DNA from: Halanaerobium saccharolyticum
GTDB lineage: Bacteria; Bacillota; Halanaerobiia; Halanaerobiales; Halanaerobiaceae
Direction of reading: 5' to 3'
NCBI RefSeq assembly: GCF_003053565.1
Contig: NZ_QAXS01000033.1
Location: 1 to 34,754, forward strand
DNA: 34,754 bases
Part shown: positions 4,031-34,195 of the stretch, piece by piece
Layout: each line of letters begins with the position of its first letter
Position numbering within the stretch: the first letter of the stretch is position 1
Program-made: the position numbers and the translations under genes
Notes under the pieces: model-generated
Database searches by the model: none
Seen by the model: the letters and a program-made list of their open reading frames with translations, nothing else
Told to the model about the DNA's origin: nothing

Positions 4031-4065
4031 ATATAAATTAAATGCTCAATTTCCAGCTGAAAATT

Positions 4066-4491
4066 TTAATAATGGTAATTAATTTTATCAGCATAAATCT
4101 TACCCAGATAGGGCAGGAGTATAATCTGGGCACCGATTAAACCGGTTCCCTTTTTATGCTGATCCATTGCCAGTAAGAGCAGAAAGTGCTCAATAAAACC
4201 ATAACCAACCAAACCAACAAAAACCCCACCTAAATAGACAAAAATATTTAGAAAATACCAGAGGTACTGCGGCATTCGATAGCGGTATTTGTTGAACCAC
4301 ATTTTTAAATTATGTATCCCCCAGAAAGAAGAAGTAAAAAAGTAAGCAAAAATAATAGCTGTGAAAACTACAGCTATTTTCGAAAAAGAAAGTAAAAAAG
4401 CAGCAGCAAGTCCTAATCCAAAACCAATTAGACCACTTATTGTTGCTTTTCTGCCAAGTTTAATTATAAATTGATCCTGATTATACATCAT
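4066..4491 (-). CDS. Small integral membrane protein, unknown function
   Basis: The product has 141 residues and about four hydrophobic segments (roughly residues 16-36, 40-58, 78-105 and 116-132) separated by a short basic loop (MWFNKYRYRM). I do not recognise the family. Two ATG codons stand at 4491 and 4488, with AGGTG about ten bases upstream. It follows the ArsR-type regulator on the same strand after 80 bases and so may be co-transcribed with it. On its other side it faces the broken c-di-GMP gene, 35 bases away. Nothing in the sequence gives a substrate or enzymatic motif. Confidence 0.7.
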   Translation of the reverse strand: MMYNQDQFIIKLGRKATISGLIGFGLGLAAAFLLSFSKIAVVFTAIIFAYFFTSSFWGIHNLKMWFNKYRYRMPQYLWYFLNIFVYLGGVFVGLVGYGFIEHFLLLLAMDQHKKGTGLIGAQIILLPYLGKIYADKINYHY

Positions 4492-4570
4492 TAGTGCACT
4501 ACACCTCGTAAAATATATTTAATCGAACTGTCTGACTAATTTAAAGTGATAGAACTGAGTTTCTCATGGT

Positions 4571-5476: not shown

Positions 5477-5509
5477 AATTCTCCCCCCAAACATTATTTA
5501 TTTTAGTCA

Positions 5510-5538
5510 ATTATAAAACAAAATCAATAAAAAATCAA
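5510..5538 (-). promoter_or_regulatory. Promoter of the ArsR-type regulator
   Basis: On the minus strand TTGATT (5538-5533) and TATAAT (5515-5510) are 17 bases apart. Transcription would begin near 5503. An ATG at 5494 would then have almost no leader, which supports the start at TTG 5476. Confidence 0.6.
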
Positions 5539-5652
5539 ATTTAAGCATTTGTTTTAATAAATAATTTAATAATCTTTTTCCTTTATGCAATACTAAAATA
5601 TAGAAAAAATAAAAAATATAATTTTAAGCGCTGATTTAACAGGGATAATAAG

Positions 5653-5669
5653 ACAATCGTTAAAATTGT
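5653..5669. promoter_or_regulatory. Possible operator, inverted repeat upstream of the transport operon
   Basis: ACAAT and ATTGT are separated by seven bases, just upstream of the -35 box at 5692. It is a candidate site for the divergent ArsR-type regulator. In this A+T-rich stretch such a short repeat may occur by chance. Confidence 0.3.
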
Positions 5670-5691
5670 TAGATTATTTAATTATATTAAT

Positions 5692-5721
5692 TTGACATTA
5701 ATCTAAAATATATGCTATACT
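5692..5721 (+). promoter_or_regulatory. Promoter of the arabinan transport operon
   Basis: A consensus TTGACA (5692-5697) lies 18 bases before TATACT (5716-5721), which is preceded by TGC, an extended -10. The start of transcription would be near 5728, leaving a leader of about 250 bases before the first gene. It is the strongest promoter-like sequence in the 502-base gap between 5477 and 5978. Confidence 0.7.
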
Positions 5722-5731
5722 TTTAGTGAAA

Positions 5732-5833
5732 ATTAAAGAACTAAAGTTTCTATTCAACTTTTAATTTAAGATTAGAAGTCTATAAGAGTAGTAATAAGTA
5801 CTATTAAGTTGAATTTATCAATTGTTCTTTAAT
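5732..5833 (+). promoter_or_regulatory. Nested inverted repeats in the leader of the transport operon
   Basis: Beginning about four bases after the predicted transcription start, ATTAAAGAAC (5732-5741) pairs perfectly with GTTCTTTAAT (5824-5833). Inside it ATTCAACTT (5752-5760) pairs with AAGTTGAAT (5806-5814), and TAATA/TATTA lies near the tip. In RNA this is one long interrupted stem of about 100 bases. It does not match a riboswitch class that I recognise, and no T-tract follows, so it is not a plain terminator. It could equally be a set of DNA operator half-sites. Confidence 0.5.
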
Positions 5834-5843
5834 CAATACTAAA

Positions 5844-5855
5844 ACAAACGCTTAT
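5844..5855 (+). promoter_or_regulatory. Weak LacI-type operator-like site
   Basis: ACAAACGCTTAT has the central CG and left half of a LacI-family operator, with 8 of 12 positions symmetrical. It lies downstream of the promoter, where a repressor could block transcription. It resembles the better site at 20662-20673. Confidence 0.3.
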
Positions 5856-5922
5856 AACCTTATAATTTCACTTAATGAGCAAATTAATTAAATCTGGAGG
5901 TGGATAATCAACAAAAAGCAGT

Positions 5923-5934
5923 ATCAAGCTTGAT
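5923..5934. promoter_or_regulatory. Perfect 12-bp palindrome in the leader
   Basis: ATCAAGCTTGAT is fully symmetrical and lies 44 bases before the first gene. A second GGAGG stands upstream at 5896-5900 with no usable start codon behind it. The palindrome may be an operator; its function is unknown. Confidence 0.3.
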
Positions 5935-5978
5935 CAGATTTAAGATTCAAAATTTATAATTATAAGGGAGAGGAAAAA

Positions 5979-7988
5979 ATGAAGAAATTTACAAAAGTAT
6001 TTTTTCTAACAGTTTTAATAATGAGTATTTCACTAACTGCTTTTGCTGGAGCTGGAGAAGAGGCTGCTAAAAATCCTGTATCAGGAATTGTACCATTTTC
6101 TGAATCTGGAATCACGGAATTTAACGAAGCACCTATGTTAAAAGAAAAAGTTGAAGCTGGTGAATTACCTCCGGTAGAAGAAAGACTACCTAAAGAACCG
6201 GTAGTTGTTCAGCCGGAAGAAGAAATCGGAAATTATGGCGGCAGCATGACCTTTACTCAGTTTGGACCTGAAGGTTTAGGGGTTAATGGTCATGTTTTAG
6301 TGGAAACACCTTTACTTAAAAATAGAGATTTTGACAACTTAATTACCATTCCAAACTTTGCTAAGGACTGGGAATACAGTGAAGATGGTAGAACATTTAC
6401 TCTTTATTTAAGAGAAGGAGTAAAATGGTCTGATGGTGATGACTTAACTACTGAAGATCTGCAGTTCTGGTATGAAGATATTTTACTTAACGAAAGTTTA
6501 ACAACTGCAGTACCTATTGCCTTCCGTCCTGGTGGAGAAATCATGGAATTAGAAATAGTAGACGAATATACAGCTAAGTTTACTTTTGCAATTCCTAACT
6601 ATAACTTCCACGAAGCTATGGATGCAACCTGGTATGCAGGTTTAGAATTCTTCCCACCTTCTCATTACATGAAGCAGTTCCATCTTGATTATAATGAAGA
6701 CGCAGATGAACTTGCTCAAGAAGAGGGTTTTGACAGCTGGATTCAGTATTTCAACAACAGACTGTCCTGGGAATTCTTTGATCCTAAGCCAGTTGGCAGA
6801 CCTGTATTATCTGCCTGGGTTCCTACACAGGTTACTTCAACCGGTAGAATTTACGAACGCAACCCATATTACTTTAAAGTAGATACTGAAGGTAATCAGC
6901 TGCCCTATATTGATGAGCAGAGAACTATTTACACTCCTGATGCACAGGCTAGACTAATGAATGTTTTATCAGGGGAAATTGACTATATCAGTTCTTTCTT
7001 ATCATTCTCAGATTACCCTACTCTGAAATCTAGTGAAGAAGATGGAAATTATAATGCCTGGATTGGTGACTCACTATGGGCCAGCAGAGTAACTTTCTCT
7101 GTTCAGCAGCAGCCTGTAAATGCAAAAGATATGTGGGAAATTCTGGGTGATGTAAGATTCCGTCAGGCTTTATCCTTAGCCTTAGATAGAAGTGAAATAA
7201 AAGAATTAGTATTTATGGGACAGGGTGAAGAAAGACAGCTTGCTTACCACCCGGGTACAGTTCCAGAAGAAGCTTATAATGAAGAATGGGCAACAGCTTA
7301 TGCTGAATATGATCCAGATAGAGCTAGAGAATTACTCGATGAAATGGGAGTTGTCGACCAGGATGGAGATGGCTGGAGAGAAAAACCTAATGGTGATGAC
7401 CTGTTACTGCAGCTTTTAGGTAACTCTTCTCGAGCAGTGGCTATGAACACAGCACAAATGGCTGAAGGATTCTGGAATGACATCGGAATTAATGTCAATT
7501 TTGATTCTGTAGAAGAAGGATTATTCTTTGCAGAGATCTGGGAAGGTAGAACACAGATTTCAACTACCTTTATGACAGGTTCTCTACCTCCATGGGATCA
7601 GTATGTACCTGCAGAAGATACATTTAACGGTTATGGTAACTGGTTCTTAGACTATGATCCTTATAATGGAACAAGAAAGCCTGCAGAAGAAATTCCTGAA
7701 GGCAGAAGAGAATTGGCTGTTGAGCCACCTGCAGATATCATTGAATGGTATGAAAATGGTCATATGATGGATCATGTTACTCCTGAAAGTCAGATTACTT
7801 TATTAAATTATATTGGTAATAAGATTGCAGAAGAAATTCCATCTATTGGAACAGTTGGTATGGCTGGACATGTTGGGGTATCTAAAAACGGTCTTAGAAA
7901 TGTAAGAAAAGTTGGAGATAACCCCAGTATTGGTGCTACCAGAAATGCATATGTTGAACAGTTCTACTGGGAAAATCCAGAAGAGTAA
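5979..7988 (+). CDS. Family-5 extracellular solute-binding protein (oligosaccharide/oligopeptide ABC importer)
   Basis: This periplasmic binding protein feeds the Opp/Dpp-type importer encoded next to it. The 669 residues begin with a signal peptide (MKKFTKVFFLTVLIMS, cut after AFA at about residue 23) with no lipobox Cys, so the protein is free in the periplasm of a diderm cell. The body is SBP_bac_5: the entry motif FAKDWEYSEDGRTFTLYLRE at about 129-148, then KWSDGDDLTTEDLQFW; FRQALSLALDR near 397. DQDGDGW (about 460) resembles a calcium-binding loop. The family is named for peptides, but in Thermotoga and relatives members carry oligosaccharides, and the downstream GH51/GH43 genes point to arabino-oligosaccharides; that substrate is inferred. 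The start has AAGGGAGAGG just upstream. It is the first gene of the operon. Confidence 0.93.
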   Translation: MKKFTKVFFLTVLIMSISLTAFAGAGEEAAKNPVSGIVPFSESGITEFNEAPMLKEKVEAGELPPVEERLPKEPVVVQPEEEIGNYGGSMTFTQFGPEGLGVNGHVLVETPLLKNRDFDNLITIPNFAKDWEYSEDGRTFTLYLREGVKWSDGDDLTTEDLQFWYEDILLNESLTTAVPIAFRPGGEIMELEIVDEYTAKFTFAIPNYNFHEAMDATWYAGLEFFPPSHYMKQFHLDYNEDADELAQEEGFDSWIQYFNNRLSWEFFDPKPVGRPVLSAWVPTQVTSTGRIYERNPYYFKVDTEGNQLPYIDEQRTIYTPDAQARLMNVLSGEIDYISSFLSFSDYPTLKSSEEDGNYNAWIGDSLWASRVTFSVQQQPVNAKDMWEILGDVRFRQALSLALDRSEIKELVFMGQGEERQLAYHPGTVPEEAYNEEWATAYAEYDPDRARELLDEMGVVDQDGDGWREKPNGDDLLLQLLGNSSRAVAMNTAQMAEGFWNDIGINVNFDSVEEGLFFAEIWEGRTQISTTFMTGSLPPWDQYVPAEDTFNGYGNWFLDYDPYNGTRKPAEEIPEGRRELAVEPPADIIEWYENGHMMDHVTPESQITLLNYIGNKIAEEIPSIGTVGMAGHVGVSKNGLRNVRKVGDNPSIGATRNAYVEQFYWENPEE

Positions 7989-20676: not shown

Positions 20677-20722
20677 ATAACTTTTAATTATAGTAAGCTA
20701 AAGTTTGAGAGGGGTTATGTTG

Positions 20723-23131
20723 ATGGATAATAGTGAAGCTCTACTTCAGGGCAAAAGCAGAGATGATAGCAGTGATTATCATAAGCTGCAGGGTGTTCTA
20801 AATTATGAAATTAAGTCCAATCAAGTTTTATTTGATTTTGAACATGCCAGTTTAACAATAGAATTTTTAAGAGCTGATATTTTTAGATTGATTATGGCTC
20901 ATTCCAATCAGCCTGTAAATTACAATACAACTGAAGCTGTGATTGAACATAGTCTAAGCTGTGATAATTTTGAAGTTGAAGAAAATAAAGAAAATATTAT
21001 CATTAAAACTGAAGCACTCAGGCTTGAAGTTAGAAAAGATAAATTTCTGCTCAGTGTCTTTGATCAGAAGGGTAATCTAATCCATCAGGATCACAGTGAT
21101 TACGCCCTGGGCTGGAAAAAGCAGAAAGTTAGAGCCTGGAAATCTTTTGAGAACAGCGAAAGATTTTATGGTCTGGGAGAAAAGACAGGCTGGCTTGATA
21201 AAAAGGGTAGACGTTATGAAATGTGGAACCATGATACTTTTGTTCCTCATGTTGACGATACTGACCCCTTATATCAGTCAATCCCATTTTTGATTTCCTA
21301 CAGTCCTGAAAACAGTTATGGTATTTATTTTGATAATTCATATAAAAGCTTTTTTGATCTGGGCAGTGAAGGACAGGATTACTATTCTTTCTGGGCTGAA
21401 GGTGGAGATTTAGACTACTATTTCTTTAACGGACCATCTCTGAAAGAAGTAGTTCAAAAATATTCAAAAATAACTGGCACTATGCCCTTACCACCAAAAT
21501 GGTCCCTCGGCTACCACCAGTCCCGCTACAGCTATTATCCACAGGCTGAAGTGGATGAGCTGGTAAAAACATTTAGGGATAAAGAAATCCCCTGTGATGC
21601 CTTCCATTTTGATATTCATTATATGGACGAATATAAGATTTATACCTGGGATGAAGACAGCTTTCCTGATCCTGAGGCAATGTTTAAAAATATGGCCGAA
21701 AATGGAATTAAGGGCGTTACAATTATTGATCCCGGGGTGAAAAGAGACCCAGAATATAAACTTTATCAGGAAGGTATGGAAAATGATTATTTCTGTAAAT
21801 ATCTTGATGGTAAAGTCTTTATAGATAAAGTCTGGCCGGGCAACTGCGCTTTCCCCGATTTCACCCAGTCAAAGGTAAGAGACTGGTGGGCCGGACTGCA
21901 GAAAGATTATGTAGAGCTTGGAGTTAAGGGTATCTGGAATGACATGAATGAACCGGCTGCCTTTAATGAAACAGACACCATGGATGTTAATGTAATGCAT
22001 CAAAATGATGGTGATCCTGGAACTCACCGCAGGTTCCACAATTTATATGGGTTTTTAGAAGATAAGGCTACTTTTGAAGGCTTAAAGGAAAGTCTTGCCA
22101 ATGAAAGACCTTTTGTGCTGACCAGAGCCGGCTTTGCTGGTATTCAGAGATATTCTGCTGTTTGGACAGGAGATAACCGCAGTTTCTGGGATCATATAAA
22201 AGTTGCGATGCCGATGCTGATGAATCTTGGTCTGTCAGGTGTCAGCTTCTGCGGAACAGATGTTGGTGGTTTTACCGGCAACAGTAATGGTGAGCTTCTA
22301 ACCCGCTGGACTCAGATGGGAGCCTTTGTTCCTTTCTTTAGAAACCACTGTGAGGTTAGGGCAATTTCTCAGGAGCCGTGGTCTTTTGGAGAGAAATATG
22401 AAAAGATAATAAAAAAATATATTGAGCTGAGGTATAAATTTATCACTCATCTTTATAATCTTTTCTATCAGGCTTCTCAAACAGGTATCCCTGTTATGAG
22501 GCCGCTAATTATGGAATTCCCGGAAGATAAAAAATGCGAAAATTTATCTGATCAGTTTATGATTGGTGAGAGTTTAATGGCTGCTCCGGTTTACCAGCCG
22601 GATCAGGATAAAAGAATGCTCTACCTGCCGGAAGGAAAATGGATTGATTTCTGGACAAATGAAATCTATCAGGGCGGAGAGCATATAATAGTTGACGCAC
22701 CATTAGATACTCTACCACTTTTTGTTAGAGCGGGAAGAATTATTCCGCTTAATCAGAAGTTAAATTATGTAGATGAAAAAGAGATTGAGACTCTAGAATT
22801 AAATGTATTTTTAACTGAAGATAATAATCTGGGAACTTACAGTCTTTATGATGATGATGGTATTTCCTACAACTATCAGAATGGGGTTTACAATCTAACT
22901 GAGTTTAACTATCAGTATACTGACAATCAGATAATTTTTAATATAGAAAAAAAAGAAGAAAACTATCAGCAGGAATTTAAAGATTATAAGTTGGTTTTCA
23001 ATAATTTAAATAAGGATCCTCAAACAATTTATGTTGATGGTAATGAACTAAGTGAGTTTTCTTACTCTGATAACACACTGGAATTTGAAGTTCCAGTTGT
23101 TATAAATAAAATTACCATAGAATTAAGTTAA
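20723..23131 (+). CDS. Alpha-glucosidase, GH31
   Basis: This is a cytoplasmic retaining alpha-glucosidase of 802 residues with no signal peptide. The nucleophile Asp (about 407) lies in GIWNDMNEPAAF and the acid/base Asp (about 484) in WTGDNRSFWDH. The N-terminal beta-sandwich contains ERFYGLGEKTGWLDKKGRRY (about 147-166), and HQSRYSYYP opens the barrel. The WNDMNEP form is that of alpha-glucosidases, whereas alpha-xylosidases usually have KTDFGE. The frame is open from 20705, but GAGAGGGG at 20707-20714 lies inside that extension, so ATG 20723, eight bases later, is chosen. It heads the operon with the MalEFG-like importer and LacI regulator. Confidence 0.94.
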   Translation: MDNSEALLQGKSRDDSSDYHKLQGVLNYEIKSNQVLFDFEHASLTIEFLRADIFRLIMAHSNQPVNYNTTEAVIEHSLSCDNFEVEENKENIIIKTEALRLEVRKDKFLLSVFDQKGNLIHQDHSDYALGWKKQKVRAWKSFENSERFYGLGEKTGWLDKKGRRYEMWNHDTFVPHVDDTDPLYQSIPFLISYSPENSYGIYFDNSYKSFFDLGSEGQDYYSFWAEGGDLDYYFFNGPSLKEVVQKYSKITGTMPLPPKWSLGYHQSRYSYYPQAEVDELVKTFRDKEIPCDAFHFDIHYMDEYKIYTWDEDSFPDPEAMFKNMAENGIKGVTIIDPGVKRDPEYKLYQEGMENDYFCKYLDGKVFIDKVWPGNCAFPDFTQSKVRDWWAGLQKDYVELGVKGIWNDMNEPAAFNETDTMDVNVMHQNDGDPGTHRRFHNLYGFLEDKATFEGLKESLANERPFVLTRAGFAGIQRYSAVWTGDNRSFWDHIKVAMPMLMNLGLSGVSFCGTDVGGFTGNSNGELLTRWTQMGAFVPFFRNHCEVRAISQEPWSFGEKYEKIIKKYIELRYKFITHLYNLFYQASQTGIPVMRPLIMEFPEDKKCENLSDQFMIGESLMAAPVYQPDQDKRMLYLPEGKWIDFWTNEIYQGGEHIIVDAPLDTLPLFVRAGRIIPLNQKLNYVDEKEIETLELNVFLTEDNNLGTYSLYDDDGISYNYQNGVYNLTEFNYQYTDNQIIFNIEKKEENYQQEFKDYKLVFNNLNKDPQTIYVDGNELSEFSYSDNTLEFEVPVVINKITIELS

Positions 23132-23161
23132 GACACAACAAATTAAAAGGAGGAATTTTTA

Positions 23162-24436
23162 ATGAGAAAGTCAATTATCACAGTTTCAATCTTAGTTTTA
23201 GCTTTATCCCTTATCTTTTCTGTAGGTGCTGCTGCTCAGCAGGATCTGGACAAAAAAGAAATTACTGAAGAGGTAACCCTTAAGCTCTGGGAAGCTGACG
23301 AAGAAAGAATCGATACTGAGATTTTAGATCCATTGATTGAAAGATTTGAAAGAAAATATACTAATGTTACTGTAGAAAGAACTCATGCAGGTAGTGTTGA
23401 GGATTTAAGACAGAACACTCAAACTGCTTATATGGGTGGTCAGGGACCTGATCTTGTATTAAGTCCTTTTGATCATATTGGTCCATTTTCTATTATGGGA
23501 CTTGCTCAGCCATTAGATGAGCTGATGAGTCAGGATATGAAAGATAAATATATCGATGCTGCTCTGCCTGGTATGAGCTTACACGGAGAAACTTATGGTG
23601 TACCAGTAACTATGGGTAATCATCTGATGTTAATGTATAATAAGAATATTGTTGACGAAGCTCCTGAGACCTGGTCTGAATTAATTGAAGTTGCCAAGGC
23701 AAATACAGTTGATGAAGATGGTGACGGCCTGGTTGACAAGTATGGTTTAGCATATAACTTAAATGAGCCATTCTGGTGGGCTGCTTTCCACGGTGGTTTT
23801 GACGGCTGGGTATTTGATGAAGAATATAACCCTACTTTAAATACTGAAGCTACTGTAGATGCACTGCAGTTTGTTTATGATCTTAAATTTGAGCATGAAA
23901 TCGTACCAAAAGAATCTGATTATGATCTGATGGACAGCCTGTTTAAAGAAGGTAATGTTGCCTTTATTATTAATGGAGACTGGTCAATAGAAGGTTATAA
24001 GAATGCTGAAAACATCGACCTTGGGGTTGCTCCAATTCCTAGATTCGAAAAAACCGGTAAGTATGGTCAGCCAATGACAAGTGGTAAAGGATTTATTATG
24101 CTGACTGAATTACCTGAGCAGAAACAGATTGCTGCAATTAAATTTATTGATTTCATGACCAGTACTGCAGCTCAGGAACTTTATGTAGATAATAACTTCC
24201 TGCCAAGTAATGATCAGGCTTATGGTTTACCACAAATTCAGAATGATCCAGTTATGAAAGGATCAGCTGAACAGTTAAGAAACGGTAAAGCTATGCCTGT
24301 TGTACCAGAAATGAGAGGTGTCTGGGATGCTGTAAGACCTGCTTTACAGAGTGTTATGAGTGATGACTTAACTCCTGAAGCAGCTGCAGAACAGATGCAG
24401 AAAGAAGCTGAAGAAAATATTAAGAGTATGCAGTAA
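23162..24436 (+). CDS. Family-1 extracellular sugar-binding protein (MalE-like)
   Basis: This periplasmic binding protein of 424 residues belongs to the MalFG-type importer that follows. It has a signal peptide (MRKSIITVSILVLALSLIFS, cut after AAA near residue 25) without a lipobox Cys. SBP_bac_1 features are VTLKLWEADEE at the start of the first lobe, GGQGPDLVLSPFDHIGPF (about 97-114), YGVPVTMGNHLMLMYNKNIV (about 142-161), and FKEGNVAFIINGDW near 262. DEDGDGLVDKYG (about 187) is a calcium-loop-like segment common in such proteins. An AAAGGAGG precedes the ATG. With GH31 upstream, an alpha-glucoside such as a malto- or isomalto-oligosaccharide is the probable ligand; this is inferred. Confidence 0.94.
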   Translation: MRKSIITVSILVLALSLIFSVGAAAQQDLDKKEITEEVTLKLWEADEERIDTEILDPLIERFERKYTNVTVERTHAGSVEDLRQNTQTAYMGGQGPDLVLSPFDHIGPFSIMGLAQPLDELMSQDMKDKYIDAALPGMSLHGETYGVPVTMGNHLMLMYNKNIVDEAPETWSELIEVAKANTVDEDGDGLVDKYGLAYNLNEPFWWAAFHGGFDGWVFDEEYNPTLNTEATVDALQFVYDLKFEHEIVPKESDYDLMDSLFKEGNVAFIINGDWSIEGYKNAENIDLGVAPIPRFEKTGKYGQPMTSGKGFIMLTELPEQKQIAAIKFIDFMTSTAAQELYVDNNFLPSNDQAYGLPQIQNDPVMKGSAEQLRNGKAMPVVPEMRGVWDAVRPALQSVMSDDLTPEAAAEQMQKEAEENIKSMQ

Positions 24437-24453
24437 AGAATTAATTTAAAACT

Positions 24454-24487
24454 AAAAAGAGGGGTTAAACCCCTCTTTTTCTTTTTT
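24454..24487 (+). terminator. Intrinsic terminator between binding protein and permease
   Basis: AAAAAGAGGGG (24454-24464) pairs perfectly with CCCCTCTTTTT (24470-24480) around a five-base loop, and the T-tract runs to 24487. It is a full terminator by sequence, yet the permease genes follow directly with no new promoter visible, so some read-through is expected. Confidence 0.88.
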
Positions 24488-24506
24488 GAAAAAGGGAGGT
24501 AATTAA

Positions 24507-25448
24507 ATGAGTCAACCTGGTGAAAACTTAAGGTTTACATCAGCCTTATCAAATTTTTCGCTCAAAGATTTTTGGAGAGAACATAAATTTTCTTATATGA
24601 TGCTTTTACCAGCTTTTATAGTTGTACTGTTTGTTGTAATTTATCCATTCTTTTATAATTTTAGATTAGCCTTTTCTAACCTTAATATGTATAATATGAG
24701 GCAGTTCATTCAAAATGATGAGCTAACCTATGTTGGAATTCAAAACTTTATTCAAATAGTACAGGAAAGTTCTTTTTGGATTATTCTTTTAAGAACAGTC
24801 GCCTGGACGGTTATTAATGTTGTAGCTCATGTAGGGTTTGGAATCTTTTATGCTATTATACTTGATCGAGATATAATGTTTAAATCTATTTATAGAACTT
24901 TATTAGTAATACCCTGGGCCATTCCCCAGTATATAGTAGTCTTAATCTGGAAGGGGATGTTTAACTTCCGCTATGGTGCTGTAAATTTACTCTTAAGAAA
25001 AATTGGAGTGCCTGGAGTTGCCTGGTTAAGTCAAGCCAGTACAGGTTTTAGTGCAGCTTTGATAGTAAATATCTGGCTGGGGATTCCTTTCATGATGATG
25101 ATTGCCTTAGGTGGATTGCAGAGTATTGATCCTAACTTTTATGAGGCTGCAGAAATTGATGGAGCCAGCAACTGGCAGCAGATTAAACATATTACACTGC
25201 CGCTTTTAAAACCGGTTATGTTACCTGCTGTAATCTTAGGTGTTGTCTGGACATTTAATAATCTGAGAGTAATTTATCTATTGACACAAAATACTCTAAC
25301 CAACAAAATAGATATTTTAGTTACCCATGTCTATCGTTCTGCATTTGAATTTTACCGCTATGGTTATGCTGCAGCATTTTCACTGATTATTTTTGTTATT
25401 TTACTGGTCTGGGCAATTAGCTTTATCGACTATATCAATGCAGATTAA
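24507..25448 (+). CDS. Sugar ABC transporter permease, MalF type
   Basis: This inner-membrane subunit has 313 residues and six predicted helices; the first follows a cytoplasmic tail (KDFWREHKFSYMMLLPAFIV). The family start ...LLPAFIVVLFVVIYPFFYNF is clear, and the EAA coupling loop EAAEIDGASNWQQIKHITLP lies near 212-231. GAAATGAG start is preceded by GGGAGG. It forms a heterodimer with the permease 14 bases downstream. No ATPase gene accompanies the pair in this cluster, so a shared MsmX/UgpC-like ATPase encoded elsewhere must power it. Confidence 0.93.
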   Translation: MSQPGENLRFTSALSNFSLKDFWREHKFSYMMLLPAFIVVLFVVIYPFFYNFRLAFSNLNMYNMRQFIQNDELTYVGIQNFIQIVQESSFWIILLRTVAWTVINVVAHVGFGIFYAIILDRDIMFKSIYRTLLVIPWAIPQYIVVLIWKGMFNFRYGAVNLLLRKIGVPGVAWLSQASTGFSAALIVNIWLGIPFMMMIALGGLQSIDPNFYEAAEIDGASNWQQIKHITLPLLKPVMLPAVILGVVWTFNNLRVIYLLTQNTLTNKIDILVTHVYRSAFEFYRYGYAAAFSLIIFVILLVWAISFIDYINAD

Positions 25449-25462
25449 AAGGAGGTTATTAA

Positions 25463-26338
25463 ATGTCAGTTAAAAAAGATCCTACATGGAAGAAAGTTGT
25501 TTTTCATATAATATTAATTATTTCTGTGATTATTGCGGTTTATCCAGCTTTAAGAGTTTTTGGAACTTCATTAAGACCGGGAGATTCTCTGCATTCAACC
25601 AGTCTGGCGATTATTCCTGATAATGCAACCTTTGAAGCCTATAGAACTTTGATTTTTGATAAAGGTTTTTTAGTCTGGCTCAGAAATTCACTGCTGGTCA
25701 CATTTTTCACTGTGATTATAGGAGTTTCTTTAGCTTCAACAGCAGGTTATGTTTTTTCACGCAAGAGGTTTCCAGGCCGAAAAGGTGGGCTAACATTCTT
25801 TTTATTAACTCAGATGTTTCCGGCAACCATGCTTTTACTGCCGATGTATATACTTTTAGCCCAGTTTGGGTTAACTGAACAGACGATTGTAGTGCCATTT
25901 TTAGGAATGGCTAAAGCCCACATCGGTTTGATTATTATGTATTCTTCAACTGCTTTACCCTTATGTGTCTGGCAGATGAAGGGGTATTATGATACAATCC
26001 CCGAAAGTCTTGAGGAGGCCGCACTGGTTGATGGTTTAAATCAGTTCCAGGCTTTTTATAAGATTATTTTACCACTGGCCAAACCGGCACTGGTAATTAC
26101 AGCTTTATTCTCATTTATGACTGCCTGGAATGAATATATGGTAGCTCGAGTTGTAATGACAGACAACAGTTTATATACCTTACCTGTTGGTCTAACCAAT
26201 TTAGCCGGTCAGTTTAATACTGCCTGGGCTCAATTTGCAGCAGCTTCTGTACTGATTATGATTCCTGTTATGGCAATTTTCTTACTGCTTTCCAGATTCT
26301 TAGTTGGTGGTTTAACACTTGGTGGAGTTAAAGGTTAA
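25463..26338 (+). CDS. Sugar ABC transporter permease, MalG type
   Basis: This second permease has 291 residues and six helices. The first is at about 12-32 (VVFHIILIISVIIAVYPALR), TAGYVFSRKRFPGRKG follows helix 2, and the EAA loop EEAALVDGLNQFQAFYKIIL is near 188-207. The C-terminus ends in the family's GGLTLGGVKG. AAAGGAGG stands before the ATG. It completes the MalEFG-like set; the next gene is the LacI regulator. Confidence 0.94.
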   Translation: MSVKKDPTWKKVVFHIILIISVIIAVYPALRVFGTSLRPGDSLHSTSLAIIPDNATFEAYRTLIFDKGFLVWLRNSLLVTFFTVIIGVSLASTAGYVFSRKRFPGRKGGLTFFLLTQMFPATMLLLPMYILLAQFGLTEQTIVVPFLGMAKAHIGLIIMYSSTALPLCVWQMKGYYDTIPESLEEAALVDGLNQFQAFYKIILPLAKPALVITALFSFMTAWNEYMVARVVMTDNSLYTLPVGLTNLAGQFNTAWAQFAAASVLIMIPVMAIFLLLSRFLVGGLTLGGVKG

Positions 26339-26381
26339 AAAGTAGAATTAGGCTAAATTAAGAGTATTATTCATTACTATA

Positions 26382-26410
26382 TTTAAATCTGAGTAGAATT
26401 GTTATATAAT
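26382..26410 (+). promoter_or_regulatory. Candidate promoter of the LacI regulator
   Basis: TTTAAA (26382-26387) and TATAAT (26405-26410) are 17 bases apart, in the gap before the LacI gene. The -10 is good and the -35 poor. No CG-centred operator is visible here. Confidence 0.45.
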
Positions 26411-26461
26411 ATTAATAGAGATTAAATTTTAATCTCAACTAAACTATAAGGATTGATCAAT

Positions 26462-27481
26462 ATGCCTACTTTAAAAGATGTGGCAAAAAAAGCTGGTGTA
26501 GCGCCATCTACGGTATCGCGAGTTATTAATGACAGTTCGCGAATCAGTGAAGAAACAAAATTTAAAGTCCGAAAAATAATGGATGAAATAGGTTACCATC
26601 CCAATATAAATGCGCGAAATTTGGTTAAGCAGAGATCACATAACCTGGGACTGGTAATTCCTTATTCAACAGAGGAAGCCTTTGCTGATCCATTTTATTC
26701 TGAGATTTTACGTGGAATTGGTGTGCTTGCTCATTCTAAAGGTTTCAATCTACTTTTACTCACCAGTAATGGAGAAGAAGAGGAAAAAAAGACAGTTTTA
26801 AATGCAGTAAGAGGCAAACAAATTGATGGAGTTTTACTTTTAAGGGCCAAAAAAGAAGATGAATTAATTGATGAGTTAACTAAAATTAATTTTCCTTTTG
26901 TTATTGTAGGTCGTCCTGAAGAAAAAGATAAATATTACTGGGTTAATAACGATAATATTACTGCCAGTGAAAAAGTTGTTGATTATTTAATCAAAAATGG
27001 TCACCGAAAGATTGCAATGATTATTGGTGATGATAATTATATAATGAATAATGACCGGCTGGAAGGCTATAAAAGAGCTTTCGAAAAAAATGGTCTAAAA
27101 ATAAATAATGATTTAATACTGAGATCTGATAATACCGATCACCAAAATATATATATGCTTTCTCAGCAGATGATTAAAGAGCATCCGGAAATAACAGCTT
27201 TTTACGGGATGAGTGACACCATGGCTTATACAATAATGCAGGCCATGAATGATATGAATGTAAAAATTCCTGAGGATATTTCAATTGTCGGCTTTAACAA
27301 TAATCCAATGTCAAAAATTGTTTCTCCCCCGCTGACAACTGTAGATATCAATATTTATCTTTTAGGAAATAAAGCAACTGAGCTCTTAATTGGAGTTATT
27401 AATGGTCAGGTTGATAAATATCAGCATACGATTGTTCCGACAAATATTATTGAAAGGGACTCCTGCAAAAAAATAAAATGA
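26462..27481 (+). CDS. LacI-family transcriptional regulator
   Basis: This cytoplasmic repressor-type regulator has 339 residues. The DNA-binding head is classical (TLKDVAKKAGVAPSTVSRVI, then ARNLVKQRSHNLGLVIP as the hinge), followed by a periplasmic-binding-protein-like sugar domain (about 60-335; FADPFYSEILRGIG, IDGVLLLRAKK, MIIGDDNY, YGMSDTMAY, DISIVGFNNNP). The frame is open from TTG 26453, but AAGGA at 26448-26452 touches it; ATG 26462, nine bases later, is the better start. It closes the GH31-MalEFG cluster and probably binds the operator at 20661; the effector would be the imported sugar. Confidence 0.94.
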   Translation: MPTLKDVAKKAGVAPSTVSRVINDSSRISEETKFKVRKIMDEIGYHPNINARNLVKQRSHNLGLVIPYSTEEAFADPFYSEILRGIGVLAHSKGFNLLLLTSNGEEEEKKTVLNAVRGKQIDGVLLLRAKKEDELIDELTKINFPFVIVGRPEEKDKYYWVNNDNITASEKVVDYLIKNGHRKIAMIIGDDNYIMNNDRLEGYKRAFEKNGLKINNDLILRSDNTDHQNIYMLSQQMIKEHPEITAFYGMSDTMAYTIMQAMNDMNVKIPEDISIVGFNNNPMSKIVSPPLTTVDINIYLLGNKATELLIGVINGQVDKYQHTIVPTNIIERDSCKKIK

Positions 27482-27556: not shown

Positions 27557-27585
27557 TTTACATTCAGCTTATCTTATAATATAAT
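27557..27585 (+). promoter_or_regulatory. Promoter of the flippase/glycosyltransferase operon
   Basis: TTTACA (27557-27562) and TATAAT (27580-27585) are 17 bases apart, ending 34 bases before the first gene of the trio. Together with the terminator just upstream this marks 27620-31929 as its own transcription unit. Confidence 0.65.
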
Positions 27586-27619: not shown

Positions 27620-28660
27620 ATGGCTAATTATAAGGATTTTAACTTTAAAAAATATCTCTATTATTTTTTAGTCTTTTTATTTATTTCGGCTTCAATTTTT
27701 TTAATTCTATATTTTATTTTTTCACAGGATTCTGAATTGAAGATTTTAATTTCTTTTTCTTTAGAAAGTACTATCACTTTAATTGCTTTAGTTTTAATTT
27801 ATTACAGTCTGGATGGTTTGAGAATTTATTATATCCTCTCAAGTCTGGATTACAGACTTGAAATTAAAGATATGTATCTTTCTGTTTTTCTAAAATATTT
27901 TATTTCAAATGTTACACCTTTCAGCAGTGGAGGTGGGCTGGCTCAGATTTATTATCTTCAAGATACAGGAGCCGAAACTGGAAAATCAACTGCTGCTGTA
28001 GTACTGAGAACAGTTATTTCTTCAACCATCTTATTATTTGCTGCACCATTAATTATGCTCAGTAATCAGGAATTTTTTTCTTTGGTTACCGGTCCACTAT
28101 ACATTCTGTTATTTATAATCTTTTTAGCAGTTTATTTTACCATGCTTTATTATCTGGTATTTAAAAACAGGTTTTTAAAAAAATTTATTTTAAGGCTCTT
28201 AAACTTTTTTAAAAAAAGAAATTTAATCAGTTCAAAAAAATATAAAAATATTTTAAGATATCTGTTTAAACACCTGGAGCTGTTTTCACACGATATTATT
28301 AAATTTGTAAAGCAGGATTTAAAGTCACTTTTTATTACAATTATTTTAACTATTATTTTTTTAGTTATCGAATATTCTTTTTCTTATTTTTTGCTGCGGG
28401 CACTCGGCTACTATCAGATTAGCTATTTAAATATTATCTTTTTACACACTGTAATTGCTTTTATAATGTATTTTACTCCCACCCCCGGAGCTGCAGGTGG
28501 AGCAGAAGCAGGTTTTATTTTGTTTTACAGGCACTTAGTAGAGAGAAATGATATTTTATCACTGCTTTTTTTCTGGAGATTTTTCACAAAATACCTGGGA
28601 ATATTTATTGGTATGCTTGTATTTACATATCTGGTAATTACAAATAGAGAGGAAAATTAA
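27620..28660 (+). CDS. LPG_synthase_TM/UPF0104-type integral membrane protein (copy 1)
   Basis: This polytopic membrane protein has 346 residues and about eight to nine helices. Members of this family include the flippase half of MprF and AglD-like proteins and are thought to move lipids or lipid-linked sugars. The conserved pieces are VTPFSSGGGLAQIYYLQ (about 93-109), GKSTAAVVLRTVISS (about 119-133) and the C-terminal FTPTPGAAGGAEAGF (about 287-301). No synthase domain is attached. It is the first gene of the trio, with GGGGGCGG before the ATG. It is clearly homologous to the gene immediately downstream, from which it is separated by one base. The substrate is unknown. Confidence 0.85.
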   Translation: MANYKDFNFKKYLYYFLVFLFISASIFLILYFIFSQDSELKILISFSLESTITLIALVLIYYSLDGLRIYYILSSLDYRLEIKDMYLSVFLKYFISNVTPFSSGGGLAQIYYLQDTGAETGKSTAAVVLRTVISSTILLFAAPLIMLSNQEFFSLVTGPLYILLFIIFLAVYFTMLYYLVFKNRFLKKFILRLLNFFKKRNLISSKKYKNILRYLFKHLELFSHDIIKFVKQDLKSLFITIILTIIFLVIEYSFSYFLLRALGYYQISYLNIIFLHTVIAFIMYFTPTPGAAGGAEAGFILFYRHLVERNDILSLLFFWRFFTKYLGIFIGMLVFTYLVITNREEN

Positions 28661-28661
28661 A

Positions 28662-29723
28662 ATGTCAGATCAAAATACTTTTATAGATAAATATTTTAAT
28701 ATCAAAAATTCGCTTCTATATTTTACAATTTTCCTTGTAATTTCAGCAGTTTCTCTGTATTATATTAATCGAATCTATTCTCAGGGGAGTAATCTTGATG
28801 TCTTACTGACTTTCCCTGTAAATATTTTAGTTTCCTTATTCAGCCTCCTGTTTTTCTATTTTATTTTTGATGGTTTGAGATTGTATTTTGTTTTGAAAAC
28901 CCTGAATGCAGAGATTTCTTTTTGGAATGTTTATAAATTAGTTTTTATTAATATTTTTATTTCCAATATTACGCCACTGGCAACCGGTGGAGGTTTTGCT
29001 CAGGTTTATTTTTTACAGAAAAAAGGAGTACCGCTTGGAAAATCTTCGGCAGCTGTTGTGATTAGAACTTTATTATCAGCCACAATGCTATTTTTAAGTG
29101 TGCCTCTGATAGTATTCCGCAACCAGTCAATGCTCAATTTGCTTCCTGGAGATTATGTATTTATTTATCTGGGAGTTTTTCTGGCACTTTATTTTTTAAT
29201 TTTTTATTTATTGATTTTTAAGTTGAGAGTGATTATGAAAGTAATCTATAAGTTTTTTTACTTTTTAAAATCAAAACACCTTTTATCTAAAAAGAGATTT
29301 AGAAAGATAATCAGATATATTTTTGAGCACCTGGAGCTATTTTCTGAAGACCTGGCTTTTTTTATTCAGGGTAAGAAAATATATGTTTTTTTATCTTTTT
29401 TATTTACAGTAATTTTTCTGCTGGCAGAGTTTTCTTTTTCTTATCTTATTTTAAGAGGACTTGGTTACCAGATAAGTTTCTTTAGAATTTTAACTCTGCA
29501 GATACTGGTAGTTTTTATAATGTATTTTGCCCCTACTCCTGGAGCGGCTGGAATTGCAGAAGGTGGTTATTCACTACTGTTTGCAAGATTTGTTGATCAG
29601 AGCGATCTTTTCCCACTGCTTTTTTACTGGAGATTTTTCAGCAAATATATTGGTATACTGATCGGTGTCTTTGTCTTTTTCTTCTTAATAATTAGAGGGG
29701 GGATAGATAGTGAAGAAGAGTAA
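28662..29723 (+). CDS. LPG_synthase_TM/UPF0104-type integral membrane protein (copy 2)
   Basis: This tandem paralogue of the preceding gene has 353 residues and the same helix pattern. The matching motifs are ITPLATGGGFAQVYFLQ, GKSSAAVVIRTLLSA and FAPTPGAAGIAEGGY, and a common central loop RKIIRYIFEHLELFSEDLA corresponds to KNILRYLFKHLELFSHDII in copy 1. The two thus arose by duplication and have since diverged. The last 14 bases overlap the start of the glycosyltransferase gene, so the three are translated together. A heterodimer, or two flippases with different substrates, would both fit. Confidence 0.85.
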   Translation: MSDQNTFIDKYFNIKNSLLYFTIFLVISAVSLYYINRIYSQGSNLDVLLTFPVNILVSLFSLLFFYFIFDGLRLYFVLKTLNAEISFWNVYKLVFINIFISNITPLATGGGFAQVYFLQKKGVPLGKSSAAVVIRTLLSATMLFLSVPLIVFRNQSMLNLLPGDYVFIYLGVFLALYFLIFYLLIFKLRVIMKVIYKFFYFLKSKHLLSKKRFRKIIRYIFEHLELFSEDLAFFIQGKKIYVFLSFLFTVIFLLAEFSFSYLILRGLGYQISFFRILTLQILVVFIMYFAPTPGAAGIAEGGYSLLFARFVDQSDLFPLLFYWRFFSKYIGILIGVFVFFFLIIRGGIDSEEE

Positions 29724-31929
29724 GCTATATTTATTTATTTTAATCATTATTATTTTAATTTTATTTACATATAAAATTTACGCCCCCTACACAATTCAGG
29801 ATTTTAATGCAGTAAATGTTAGAAATATGGACTTAATTAAAAATAATATTGATGACGAAGAATATTCTTTTGCGGTTGTCGGCAATATTGAAAATTCAAT
29901 CGCTATTTTTGATAACCGAATTTTAGAAAAAATTAAAGCAAATAATATGGATTTTATTCTCTCAACAGGAAATAACCTGCGGGATGGAGATGAAAGTAAA
30001 TATCGAGTTTTTTACCGAACTCTAGAAAAATTAAATATTCCCTTTCTAACTGCTATTGGCCGCAGAGAAATTGGAGATGGGGGCAATGAAAACTTTTATA
30101 AACACTTTGGTCCCTTTTATTTTTCTTTTCAAATCGATGATTCTTATTTTATTTTTCTGGATACAACTGAAAACACTAATTTAAACTGGCAGCAGCAGTG
30201 GCTGCAGAGTGAACTTGAGCGGGCAGAAGAATATGAGAAAAAATTTGTGGTGATGAATAAAACACCTCTTAAAGTCGAAAGTGAGTATCTTAAAGATGAA
30301 GATGAGCCGGGTTATATTGAATCAGAGAGTTTAAGAAAATTTTATCAGGAAACATTCAGCAGCTATAATGTTGATTCAGTCTTTTCATCTAATATTGGAA
30401 TATTTTATCAGCAAGAAGTTGGCGGAGTAAATTATTATGTCAGCGGAGGTGCTGGGGGAGAATTAATTTTTGACAATCAGAAAAGTTTTTATCACTATCT
30501 TTTAGTTAATGTTTCAGATAGTGGAGTAGAGGTAAGTGTTGAGCAGCTGGAAAATAACCCCAGTGTTTTTTCAAAATTTCTGGTTAATATCTGGGTTTCA
30601 CTGCAGTCCTTTTTCTATGCAAATTATATCAATATTTTACTGGTCTTATTTATTGGTTTAACAATCTTTTATATTCTGCACCGAGAAATCAATAAAGAAG
30701 TGGATTATTATCGGGATTTTGCCTATGCTAACCATGAAATTAAGGATCAGAAATTAAAGATAGCAATGTTCACTAATAACTACTTTCCGGTCATAGGAGG
30801 AGTTCCAATTTCAATCCAGCGTCTGGCGAAGGCACTGCGGAAAAGAGGACATCAGGTAAAGATTTTTGCACCTGAATATAAGGAAGAAACTGAGGATGAA
30901 TCAAATATTATTCGCTGTAATTCACTTTATCATTATGAAGAAGCGGGTCTGGCCTTTCCGGTAACAAATATTTACTCACCTCAGATTAAAAGAGATTTTC
31001 AAAAAGAAGATTTTGACTTGGTTCATGCTCATCATCCATTCTGGCTGGGGAATAAGGGAAGAAAGCTGGCTGAAAAGTTTAATCTGCCGCTTGCTTTTAC
31101 CTATCATACTCGTCTGGAAAAATATTCTCATTATGTACCCAATATCTTATTTATGCGCAAGTTTTTCAAAAATCGCCTTTCTCATTTTCTAATTAAAAAC
31201 TTTGCCAATAATACAGATGCTGTTTTTGCTCCCACAGAATCTACAAAAGAGTACCTGCGTAATGTTGGAGTGAGCAGATTTATTAAAGTAATGCCAACCG
31301 GAATTGATTTTGATTATTATGACCGCCCTCAGGAGGAAATTGATGCTCTGAGAGATGAGTTGATTGGAGAGGCAGATCACCTTTTAATCTCTGTTTCCCG
31401 GCTTTCTCAGGAAAAGAATCTATATTTTCTTTTAGAGGGGATTAAAAAGCTGAAGGCAAAAAGTGATCTCAACTTTAAATTGATCATTATCGGCAGCGGT
31501 TCTGAAAAGGAAAATATTGAGGACTTTATTAATGATAATCAGCTGGAAAAAGATATCGAATTGATTGGTGCTGTAGACTTCAGAGAAATGGCTAAATATT
31601 ATCTGGCTGCTGATCTCTTTGTTTTTGCCTCAACCACTGAAACCCAGGGGATGGTCTTACTGGAAGCAATGGCTGGGTATAACCCTGTGGTTGCAGTTAA
31701 GTCAAGTGGAATTGATGATGTTATAGAAAATGGTTATAATGGTTTTAAAACTGAAGAGGATACTGAAAAATGGAGCAGTGCTGTGGCAAAAATATTAACT
31801 GATTCTCAAAATTTCGAAGAAACTGCCCAAAATGCCAGAAAAATGGCAGAGTCATCTTCAATTGAGCAGATGGCAGAATCTGCAGAGGAACTATACTATA
31901 AGATACTGCAGCTGAAAAAGTATCAGTAA
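29710..31929 (+). CDS. Membrane fusion: degenerate metallophosphoesterase domain plus GT4 glycosyltransferase
   Basis: The protein has 739 residues and starts at GTG 29710 behind GAGGGGGG. A membrane helix (about 5-23) leads to an outside domain (about 50-280) with the order of a calcineurin-like phosphoesterase: FAVVGNIE, LSTGNNLRDG, TAIGRRE, FVVMNKTP, VFSSNIGIFYQQ, YYVSGGAGG. Every metal ligand of that fold is replaced, so it should not be a phosphatase. A second helix (about 303-323) is followed by a cytoplasmic GT4 domain (about 348-739): NYFPVIGGVPISIQRLA, HAHHPFWLG, FTYHTRLE, PTGIDFDYY, SVSRLSQEKN, and the EX7E pair Glu644/Glu652 (STTETQGMVLLEAM). The GT4 part resembles diacylglycerol-type glycosyltransferases. 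It would add sugar to a lipid at the membrane; the outside domain may bind a ligand or the product. Confidence 0.85.
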   Translation: MKKSKLYLFILIIIILILFTYKIYAPYTIQDFNAVNVRNMDLIKNNIDDEEYSFAVVGNIENSIAIFDNRILEKIKANNMDFILSTGNNLRDGDESKYRVFYRTLEKLNIPFLTAIGRREIGDGGNENFYKHFGPFYFSFQIDDSYFIFLDTTENTNLNWQQQWLQSELERAEEYEKKFVVMNKTPLKVESEYLKDEDEPGYIESESLRKFYQETFSSYNVDSVFSSNIGIFYQQEVGGVNYYVSGGAGGELIFDNQKSFYHYLLVNVSDSGVEVSVEQLENNPSVFSKFLVNIWVSLQSFFYANYINILLVLFIGLTIFYILHREINKEVDYYRDFAYANHEIKDQKLKIAMFTNNYFPVIGGVPISIQRLAKALRKRGHQVKIFAPEYKEETEDESNIIRCNSLYHYEEAGLAFPVTNIYSPQIKRDFQKEDFDLVHAHHPFWLGNKGRKLAEKFNLPLAFTYHTRLEKYSHYVPNILFMRKFFKNRLSHFLIKNFANNTDAVFAPTESTKEYLRNVGVSRFIKVMPTGIDFDYYDRPQEEIDALRDELIGEADHLLISVSRLSQEKNLYFLLEGIKKLKAKSDLNFKLIIIGSGSEKENIEDFINDNQLEKDIELIGAVDFREMAKYYLAADLFVFASTTETQGMVLLEAMAGYNPVVAVKSSGIDDVIENGYNGFKTEEDTEKWSSAVAKILTDSQNFEETAQNARKMAESSSIEQMAESAEELYYKILQLKKYQ

Positions 31930-32005: not shown

Positions 32006-34195
32006 ATGTTGATTAATTTTTTTGAAGAACAAAAGGTTTTTCATTTAAAAAATGAAGAAATAAGTTATGTAATTAAAATATTAAAAAATGGTCAGCTGGG
32101 ACATCTCTACTGGGGTAAAAAAATTGAAAAAGCTGAAAGATTGGACCGCTATGATATCTCTCAGCACCGGCCTTATGAGGCTTATGCTCTTAAAGATGAT
32201 ACGGGCTTTATCTTAGAAAATATAGCCCGCGAATATCCATCTTTCGGCCAGTCTGATTTTAGGGAGCCAGCCTATCAAACCGAAGCAGAAAACGGCTCAA
32301 TTATCAGTGACCTAAAATATCAGGATCATCAAATTTACAGTGGCAAAAAAGAATTAGCCGGCCTGCCCTCAACCTATGTTGAAAAAGAGTCTGAAGCAGA
32401 AACTCTGGAAATAATCCTCTATGATGAGGTGACTGATCTGGAGGTGGTTTTAAGCTATACAATTTTTCAGGATTATCCGATAATTACCCGCTCAGCTAAT
32501 TTTAAGAATCAGGGTCAGCAGAAGCTCAATCTCAAAAGGGCACTTTCAATGAGTGTTGATTTTGAGAATAAAGATTTTGAGCTGCTGCAGCTTTCCGGAG
32601 CCTGGGGCAGAGAAAGAGATATTATCCGCCGCCCACTGGAGCAGGGAATAACCAGAATCGACAGCAAAAGAGGGGGCAGCAGCCACCAGCAGAATCCATT
32701 TGTGGCTTTAGTTGAGCCGGAGACTGATGAGTACAGAGGAGAGGCCTATGGGTTCAGTCTTGTTTATTCTGCTAATTTTATCGCCCAGGCAGAGCGCAAT
32801 CACTATGGTAAAACAAGATTAACAATGGGAATTAATCCTTTTACCTTTAACTGGCTTTTGGAATGTGGAGAGAGCTTCCAGACACCAGAAGTTGTTATGA
32901 ATTATTCTGATCAGGGTTTAAATAAAATGTCTCAAAACTTTCATCAGTTATACAGAAGCCGACTGGTCAGGGGTAAACATAGAGATAAGCAGCGGCCGGT
33001 TTTGATCAACAACTGGGAAGGTACCTATTTTGATTTTGATACAGATAAGATATTAGAGATGGCAGCAGCTGCTGCAGAAGTAGATCTTGAGCTCTTTGTC
33101 CTTGATGACGGCTGGTTTGGGAAAAGAAATGATGATACTTCCTCACTGGGTGACTGGTATGTAAATGAAGAGAAACTGCCCGGAGGATTAGAATACCTGG
33201 CTGAGGAAATAAATAAGCTGGGGATGGATTTTGGCCTCTGGTTTGAGCCGGAAATGATTTCTCCTGACAGTGATTTATACCGTGAGCATCCAGAATGGGC
33301 CATCCAGGTCCCGGAAAGAAAGTCATCAGAATCCAGACAGCAGTTAATCTTAGATTTAAGCCGTAGTGATGTTCAAGATTATATCATTGAGCGGGTATCT
33401 GCTATTTTATCTAAGGCTAATATTTCTTATGTTAAGTGGGATATGAACAGGCCGATGACTGAATATGGTTCTTTAGAGCTTGCTTCTGAAAATCAGAGTG
33501 AGTTAAACCACCGCTATATTTTGGGACTCTACCGAGTTTTAGAAGAGATCACTTCCAGCTTTCCGGAAGTATTGTTTGAAAGCTGTGCCGGTGGTGGAGG
33601 CCGCTTTGACCCGGGAATGCTTCATTATATGCCGCAGACCTGGACCAGTGATGATACTGATGCAGTTGAAAGATTAAAGATCCAGTATGGAACTTCAATG
33701 GTTTATCCAGCTTCTTCGATGGGGGCTCATGTTTCTGCAGTTCCAAACCATCAGGTTGAGCGCAGTACCTCACTTAAAATGCGCTATGATGTGGCAAGTT
33801 TCGGCAACCTGGGCTATGAACTTGATATTACAGAATTAAATAAAGAAGAGATGGAAGCCGTCAAAAAGCAGGTTAATAACTATAAGGAGATCAGAGAGCT
33901 GGTGCAGTTTGGTGATTTTTACCGACTGCGGAGTCCATTTGCAGGTAATTTTACTGCCTGGTCTTATCTAAGTCAGGATCAGGAAGAGGTTCTGGCAGGA
34001 TTTTATCAGGTGCTGGCGACTCCCAACCCGAAAGAGGAGACTTTAAAACTGAAAGGCTTAGATCCTGACAGGGATTATAAGGAGCTAAATAGTGGAGAAA
34101 TTTATGGTGGGGATGAGCTGATGAATTTTGGTATCAAAGTTCCCTATTTAAAAGAAGATTTTTCTTCCAGAGTCTGGAGGTTTAAAGCTGTTTAA
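32006..34195 (+). CDS. Alpha-galactosidase, GH36
   Basis: This is a cytoplasmic retaining alpha-galactosidase of 729 residues, the usual length of the bacterial AgaN/RafA type, with no signal peptide. The nucleophile Asp479 is in YVKWDMNRP and the acid/base Asp549 in TWTSDDTDAVERLKIQYG. LDDGWFGKRNDD (about 367-378), FGLWFEPEMISPDSDLY (409-425) and ESCAGGGGRFDPG (525-537) complete the family pattern. The N-terminal beta-sandwich spans about 1-320. ATG 32006 has TTGGAGG eight bases upstream. It would hydrolyse raffinose-type or galactomannan oligosaccharides after import; no transporter for these is next to it. It follows the glycosyltransferase gene by 76 bases. Confidence 0.96.
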   Translation: MLINFFEEQKVFHLKNEEISYVIKILKNGQLGHLYWGKKIEKAERLDRYDISQHRPYEAYALKDDTGFILENIAREYPSFGQSDFREPAYQTEAENGSIISDLKYQDHQIYSGKKELAGLPSTYVEKESEAETLEIILYDEVTDLEVVLSYTIFQDYPIITRSANFKNQGQQKLNLKRALSMSVDFENKDFELLQLSGAWGRERDIIRRPLEQGITRIDSKRGGSSHQQNPFVALVEPETDEYRGEAYGFSLVYSANFIAQAERNHYGKTRLTMGINPFTFNWLLECGESFQTPEVVMNYSDQGLNKMSQNFHQLYRSRLVRGKHRDKQRPVLINNWEGTYFDFDTDKILEMAAAAAEVDLELFVLDDGWFGKRNDDTSSLGDWYVNEEKLPGGLEYLAEEINKLGMDFGLWFEPEMISPDSDLYREHPEWAIQVPERKSSESRQQLILDLSRSDVQDYIIERVSAILSKANISYVKWDMNRPMTEYGSLELASENQSELNHRYILGLYRVLEEITSSFPEVLFESCAGGGGRFDPGMLHYMPQTWTSDDTDAVERLKIQYGTSMVYPASSMGAHVSAVPNHQVERSTSLKMRYDVASFGNLGYELDITELNKEEMEAVKKQVNNYKEIRELVQFGDFYRLRSPFAGNFTAWSYLSQDQEEVLAGFYQVLATPNPKEETLKLKGLDPDRDYKELNSGEIYGGDELMNFGIKVPYLKEDFSSRVWRFKAV

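Follow-up and report, generated by a model that had tools for sequence, protein, structure and literature searches.

What does a phosphoesterase domain do once every one of its metal ligands has been replaced and it has been joined, through the membrane, to a glycosyltransferase? The question is raised by a gene of Halanaerobium saccharolyticum that lies in the window, by which we mean the whole stretch of 34,754 nucleotides analysed here.

Architecture of the fusion protein

The open reading frame singled out in the preliminary description is real: it starts at a GTG codon, runs in a continuous frame over exactly 29710-31929 (+) and, in Halanaerobium, encodes in turn a transmembrane (TM) segment, a metallophosphoesterase (MPE)-like domain, a second TM segment and a GT4 glycosyltransferase domain.

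29710-31929 (+): pseudo-metallophosphoesterase–GT4 fusion gene, 739 aa; an open reading frame with full-length homologues
29725-29781 (+): first TM segment, residues 6-24, from hydropathy; helix 3-24 in the model
29842-30564 (+): domain of MPE/purple acid phosphatase (PAP) fold, residues ~45-285, metal ligands lost; from profile and structure matches
30625-30681 (+): second TM segment, residues 306-324, from hydropathy; helix 306-339 in the model
30754-31911 (+): GT4 glycosyltransferase domain, residues 349-734, from Pfam; the nearest curated model is alpha-monoglucosyl-DAG synthase, with a score under its cut-off

The two hydrophobic segments flank the outer domain, and the first is preceded by a basic N-terminus, which was taken as inside. 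The cell envelope of H. saccharolyticum includes an outer membrane (PMC5007114), which would put the outer domain in the periplasm.

The Pfam Metallophos model gave no match in the N-terminal half of the window protein at E<1, nor in the proteins of loci L073 and L074 at E<0.1. PAPs were matched by the outer-domain sequence itself (phmmer E 0.005), and a plant PAP was found by a profile of the outer-domain family (hmmsearch E 7e-6). A profile made from the fused copies only reached intact MPEs at E 3.6e-39, and a chance resemblance to MPEs was therefore rejected.

A structure search with the model of the full-length fusion (pLDDT 69.7) listed GT-B folds only; because these filled the list, the outer domain was folded separately with AlphaFold, from an alignment of 22 sequences (pLDDT 83.1, pTM 0.85). 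Foldseek matched this model to Rv0805 in the PDB (E 2.6e-12), and VIA-align against PDB MPEs and PAPs gave Z scores of 22-23 over 207-245 residues. GAP50, pig PAP, human PAP, GpdQ and Rv0805 superposed with Z 22.7-23.0 and rmsd 2.5-3.3 over 216-224 residues, GAP50 (3tgh) being the joint-top match (Z 23.0, rmsd 2.5, 223 residues). The model has the four-layer β-sandwich of PF00149 members. The MPE fold proposed earlier for residues 45-285 is thus borne out by prediction and superposition (Z ~23 to PAP, GAP50 and GpdQ), and a phosphoesterase fold in the outer domain is well supported by the modelling. Fold and order of elements are common to the outer domain and the PF00149 enzymes (Rv0805, GpdQ, mammalian PAP); unlike these, the fusion is devoid of any metal-ligand motif and continues through its second TM segment into a GT4.

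Replacement and fixation of the metal-ligand positions

Alignment with ligand-intact relatives places all five motif changes where the preliminary description had put them: D59N, D88N, GNHD to GRRE, H183N and GHxH to SNIG.

29884-29886 (+): codon of N59, Asn for the motif I Asp, invariant in the fused clade
29971-29973 (+): codon of N88, Asn for the motif II Asp, invariant in the fused clade
30058-30069 (+): GRRE (residues 117-120) for GNHD; E120 invariant, 118-119 among the most variable
30256-30258 (+): codon of N183, where motif IV has Asn in place of His; three Deferribacterota copies have Cys
30388-30399 (+): SNIG (residues 227-230) for GHxH; N228 invariant

On the unfused side, Deferribacterota supplied three TM-MPE-TM proteins and Ca. 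Mcinerneyibacterium a secreted-type MPE; further MPEs came from the phylum to which the window belongs. The split between fused and unfused proteins is total. Ligands are complete in every unfused relative examined and absent in 18 of 18 fused copies, which come from 16 genomes of Halanaerobiia, Mcinerneyibacteriota and Deferribacterota; in none of these copies is the PF00149 series D, GD, GNH(D/E), H, GHxH preserved.

N59, N88, E120 and N228 do not vary among the 16 fused copies that are near-complete, whose overall identity falls as low as 43%; the codons of N59, E120 and N228 show synonymous changes. Positions 118, 119 and 230, no longer metal-bound, rank with the more variable ones; here, at the former N and H of GNHD and the final His of GHxH, drift has been free, whereas the remaining replaced positions are fixed. 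Beside N59, N88, N183 and N228, the fused clade conserves E120, H262, D151 and Y261, and it has basic residues of its own (K97, R99, K184 and R209), invariant or nearly so, which could hold an anion without metals. In Ca. Mcinerneyibacterium, a 510-aa protein (L080:622-2154) contains two MPE-like repeats, the second of which looks degenerate by eye (HMSNS, GGIVEEG, AGRD, GTSSHAY).

The dN/dS ratio of the outer domain is roughly 0.06-0.2 for most close pairs and reaches at most ~0.33, in the most distant pair tried; the values are rough, with synonymous sites near saturation in several pairs. They point strongly to purifying selection on the outer domain, whose reading frame and length are maintained in fused copies down to 43% identity. 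In a tree of fused and unfused outer domains from which the ligand columns were left out, all fused copies lie on one side of a single branch (support 89/78; 91% of bootstrap trees). As the fused copies form one group, a single loss of the ligands suffices; the exact sister group of the clade is unsure, owing to long branches. The earlier proposal of complete ligand loss with the fold kept, under selection for a new role, is strongly supported by the fixation of the dead site in fused copies of all three phyla. The counter-case set against it, of homologues with intact ligands beside a merely decayed copy, is excluded, since the intact homologues form a separate, unfused group and the dead site of the fused one is fixed.

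Fused copies occur in most Halanaerobium genomes searched, in a related genus of the family, in Halanaerobacter jeridensis, in Ca. Mcinerneyibacterium aminivorans and in several Deferribacterota; none was found in two near-complete genomes of the window's genus (G007 and G010). This patchy distribution is consistent with transfer. A further fused copy, 80% identical and likewise preceded by its own flippase gene, lies in the same genome as the window (G000:C46:17864-20065; L033:5856-8078), and another species (G006) also carries two.

The glycosyltransferase and its flippase partner

On the inner side, the GT4 domain is intact, as had been noted. Residues ~349-734 match PF13439 (8.7e-32) and PF00534 (3.3e-33), both above the Pfam cut-off, and superpose on the GT-B folds of MshA (Z 26.7), BshA (Z 26.5) and PimA (Z 24.5).

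31639-31665 (+): EX7E motif of the GT4 active site, E644…E652, invariant in the alignment

The Arg/Lys donor-phosphate residues of GT4 enzymes are present as well (R564 and K569). Since R564, K569, H466 and E644/E652 are invariant in the fused copies, this half is probably active. The best of all curated glycosyltransferase models is alpha-monoglucosyldiacylglycerol synthase (NF049988, E 3.5e-54), with 184.7 bits against an equivalog cut-off of 400. A lipid acceptor is likely, its class not being certain from sequence. In part of a published Halanaerobium lipidome (PMC10782966), DAG and PG are high and no glycolipid class is reported, which weighs against a glycolipid product.

The fusion gene is preceded by two flippase-like genes.

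27557-27585 (+): promoter-like site, 11/12, a consensus match only, upstream of the flippase–flippase–fusion run
27620-28660 (+): second flippase-like paralogue, 44% identical to the first and found only at this locus among the loci read
28662-29723 (+): LPG_synthase_TM/TIGR00374 flippase-like protein, 353 aa; PF03706 and TIGR00374 above cut-off

The gene at 28662-29723 overlaps the fusion gene by 14 bases, and a flippase gene is directly upstream of the fusion in 16 of 17 assessable copies. In the seventeenth, a transposase gene (L104:8564-9694 (-)) stands between the two, the sole interruption seen. Pairwise identities of fusion and flippase run in step (rho 0.91, 105 pairs), which partly reflects shared species history; genes further from the pair vary between species. 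Tandem flippase paralogues are a feature of this locus, and in the other genomes read only the 28662-29723 type adjoins the fusion. The module sits inside a sugar-use cluster (20705-27481 and 32006-34195) of GH31, a binding protein, two permeases, a LacI regulator and a GH36 alpha-galactosidase; the cluster surrounds the module in several species and in others does not.

Related glycosyltransferases are found beside flippase genes in the absence of the outer domain. Four genomes of another family encode, downstream of a flippase gene, GT4s that are ~40% identical and have no outer domain. In that family of the class (L045-L047 and L049, ~3600-7930) the run consists of an ECF sigma factor, an anti-sigma factor, a protein of 283-312 aa, itself unknown, a flippase and a GT4; the sigma and anti-sigma domains were scanned in L045 only. 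The run suggests stress-controlled glycolipid synthesis. A stand-alone MPE was considered for loci L045-L047 and rejected, as the 283-312 aa gene before the flippase has no phosphoesterase match.

In two Deferribacterota, an intact TM-MPE-TM relative of the outer domain has on one side the gene of a diglucosyl-DAG-synthase-like enzyme and on the other that of an MprF-like flippase (in L109, E 3.5e-60 and E 2.8e-51, respectively).

L109:6351-9485 (-) and L110:6635-9760 (-): three overlapping genes, for a diglucosyl-DAG-synthase-like enzyme, an intact TM-MPE-TM protein and an MprF-type flippase

The gene of a PAP2/VTT-domain protein precedes the run in L110. Taken together, the linkage of fusion and flippase and the Deferribacterota operon tie the outer domain, alive or dead, twice to glycolipid synthesis and flipping. 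The operon and the fusion share the outer domain, the two TM segments and the kind of gene partners; they differ in that the operon protein has its ligands intact and is unfused, and its glycosyltransferase is of the MGDG/UgtP type rather than GT4.

Proposed role and relation to known systems

Most likely, the locus encodes a module that makes and flips a glycolipid, and the former phosphoesterase would be its periplasmic domain for binding or docking. The comparative evidence thereby narrows the role to a glycolipid-plus-flippase context, which was absent from the preliminary description. In the mechanism that we propose, the GT4 domain would add a sugar to a membrane lipid of the diacylglycerol or glycosyl-DAG type at the inner face of the cytoplasmic membrane, and the adjacent TIGR00374/MprF-type flippase would move the glycosylated lipid outward. 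The pseudo-phosphoesterase, without hydrolysing anything, would use the cleft of its old active site to bind a lipid head group or some other anionic ligand of the envelope, and/or dock to the flippase or the envelope, coupling glycolipid synthesis to export. The outer domain would be the non-catalytic descendant of a TM-MPE-TM phosphoesterase, fused to a GT4 lipid glycosyltransferase, and the whole protein would work with the adjacent flippase, an explanation for which we hold the balance to be even. It starts from observed features: the fusion, the fold, a ligand loss fixed by selection, the GT4 motifs and a near-constant flippase linkage. To these it adds a lipid acceptor, an anionic ligand and a coupling of synthesis to export, which we infer; the flippase encoded at 28662-29723 may have substrates other than a glycolipid.

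Sequence does not separate this binding or docking role from a sensor or a scaffold. A sensor or switch, in which the outer domain would perceive an envelope signal (phosphate, a nucleotide, LPS or another phosphorylated ligand) and control the GT4 allosterically, with the flippase incidental to control, is unlikely, if worth serious weight. The layout of outer domain, TM segments and inner enzyme is receptor-like, and old ligand positions fixed as polar Asn/Glu, with basic residues gained, are what retained ligand binding would predict. However, the near-constant flippase neighbour points to a transport partner, and the passage of a signal through two single TM helices finds no support in the sequence.

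Less probable still is a pure scaffold, in which the outer domain would have no ligand pocket and would serve to anchor or dock the flippase or a complex of the cell wall. Such a role would resemble that of GAP50, the joint-best structural match, in which a PAP fold serves apicomplexans as the membrane-tethered anchor of the glideosome (PMC8949495). The likeness is one of fold only, GAP50 being eukaryotic, not fused to an enzyme and itself reported to have acid phosphatase activity (PMC8949495), which tells against its use as a model of a mere anchor. In addition, the exact fixation of N59, N88, E120 and N228 is more than upkeep of the fold seems to need, although these residues could be structural.

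It is very improbable that the replaced site has become a catalyst of some other reaction, one that needs no metal, on the outer side of the membrane. The conservation of E120, H262, D151 and Y261 together with the substituted Asn residues might hint at one; however, H262, D151 and Y261 are conserved in the ligand-intact relatives too and so are not new, and Cys is tolerated for Asn at 183 in three copies. That the outer domain is a degenerating, functionless remnant is scarcely credible and was rejected: every catalytic motif is gone, positions 118, 119 and 230 drift and the gene is missing from some complete genomes of the genus, but frame and length persist to 43% identity under strong apparent purifying selection, the replaced residues are invariant in three phyla and the tree has a single fused group.

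Among described systems, the binding or docking module is closest in gene arrangement to HexSDF of Clostridioides difficile (PMC10128005) and GpgSDF of Pseudomonas aeruginosa (PMC12713373), each comprising a lipid glycosyltransferase, a flippase and a deacetylase and responsible for making a glycolipid. As in those systems, a glycosyltransferase gene stands beside a gene for a flippase of the MprF/TIGR00374 type (in the 16 of 17 copies given above), flippase activity being predicted there as here, and the lipid acceptor of the fusion being presumed. The third member differs, a deacetylase there and here a dead phosphoesterase domain fused to the glycosyltransferase; no deacetylase gene is found beside the window fusion, whose neighbours are flippases, GH36, a LacI regulator and an ABC transporter. 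HexS is annotated as a monogalactosyl-DAG synthase, whereas the window enzyme is a GT4, as is GpgS. The L109/L110 operon is itself HexSDF-like, with a phosphoesterase in the deacetylase's place. A likeness at superfamily level exists to PlcP–Agt (PMC8528852), in which a metallophosphoesterase-type phospholipase is paired with a DAG glycosyltransferase. PlcP, however, is catalytically active, stands as a protein of its own and provides DAG, whereas the fusion has lost the ligands of a catalytically competent MPE phospholipase, and PlcP–Agt involves neither a flippase nor a fusion.

The statement that no system of this form has been described holds for the libraries and literature searched: neither an MPE–GT fusion nor a bacterial pseudo-MPE was found there, most subscription papers lying outside the search. 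The described pseudophosphatases that the search returned are mainly eukaryotic, of the tyrosine-phosphatase and myotubularin families. The present protein is a pseudo-metallophosphoesterase from a bacterium, and its history is clean: intact relatives belong to a parallel glycolipid operon, and one loss accounts for the dead site, which is now fixed and joined across the membrane to an enzyme that apparently works. It makes directly testable what role a phosphoesterase pocket has without metals, and likewise how glycolipid synthesis is tied to flipping, a question shared with the HexF and GpgF flippases. Tentatively, and with the chances against so specific a scheme, we suggest that throughout the fusion family, in its three lineages, the metal-free outer pocket recognises or accepts the head group of a lipid and so couples glycolipid synthesis in the inner leaflet to export by the flippase. 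If this is true, the fusion, as one protein spanning the membrane, would form a point at which glycolipid asymmetry is controlled.
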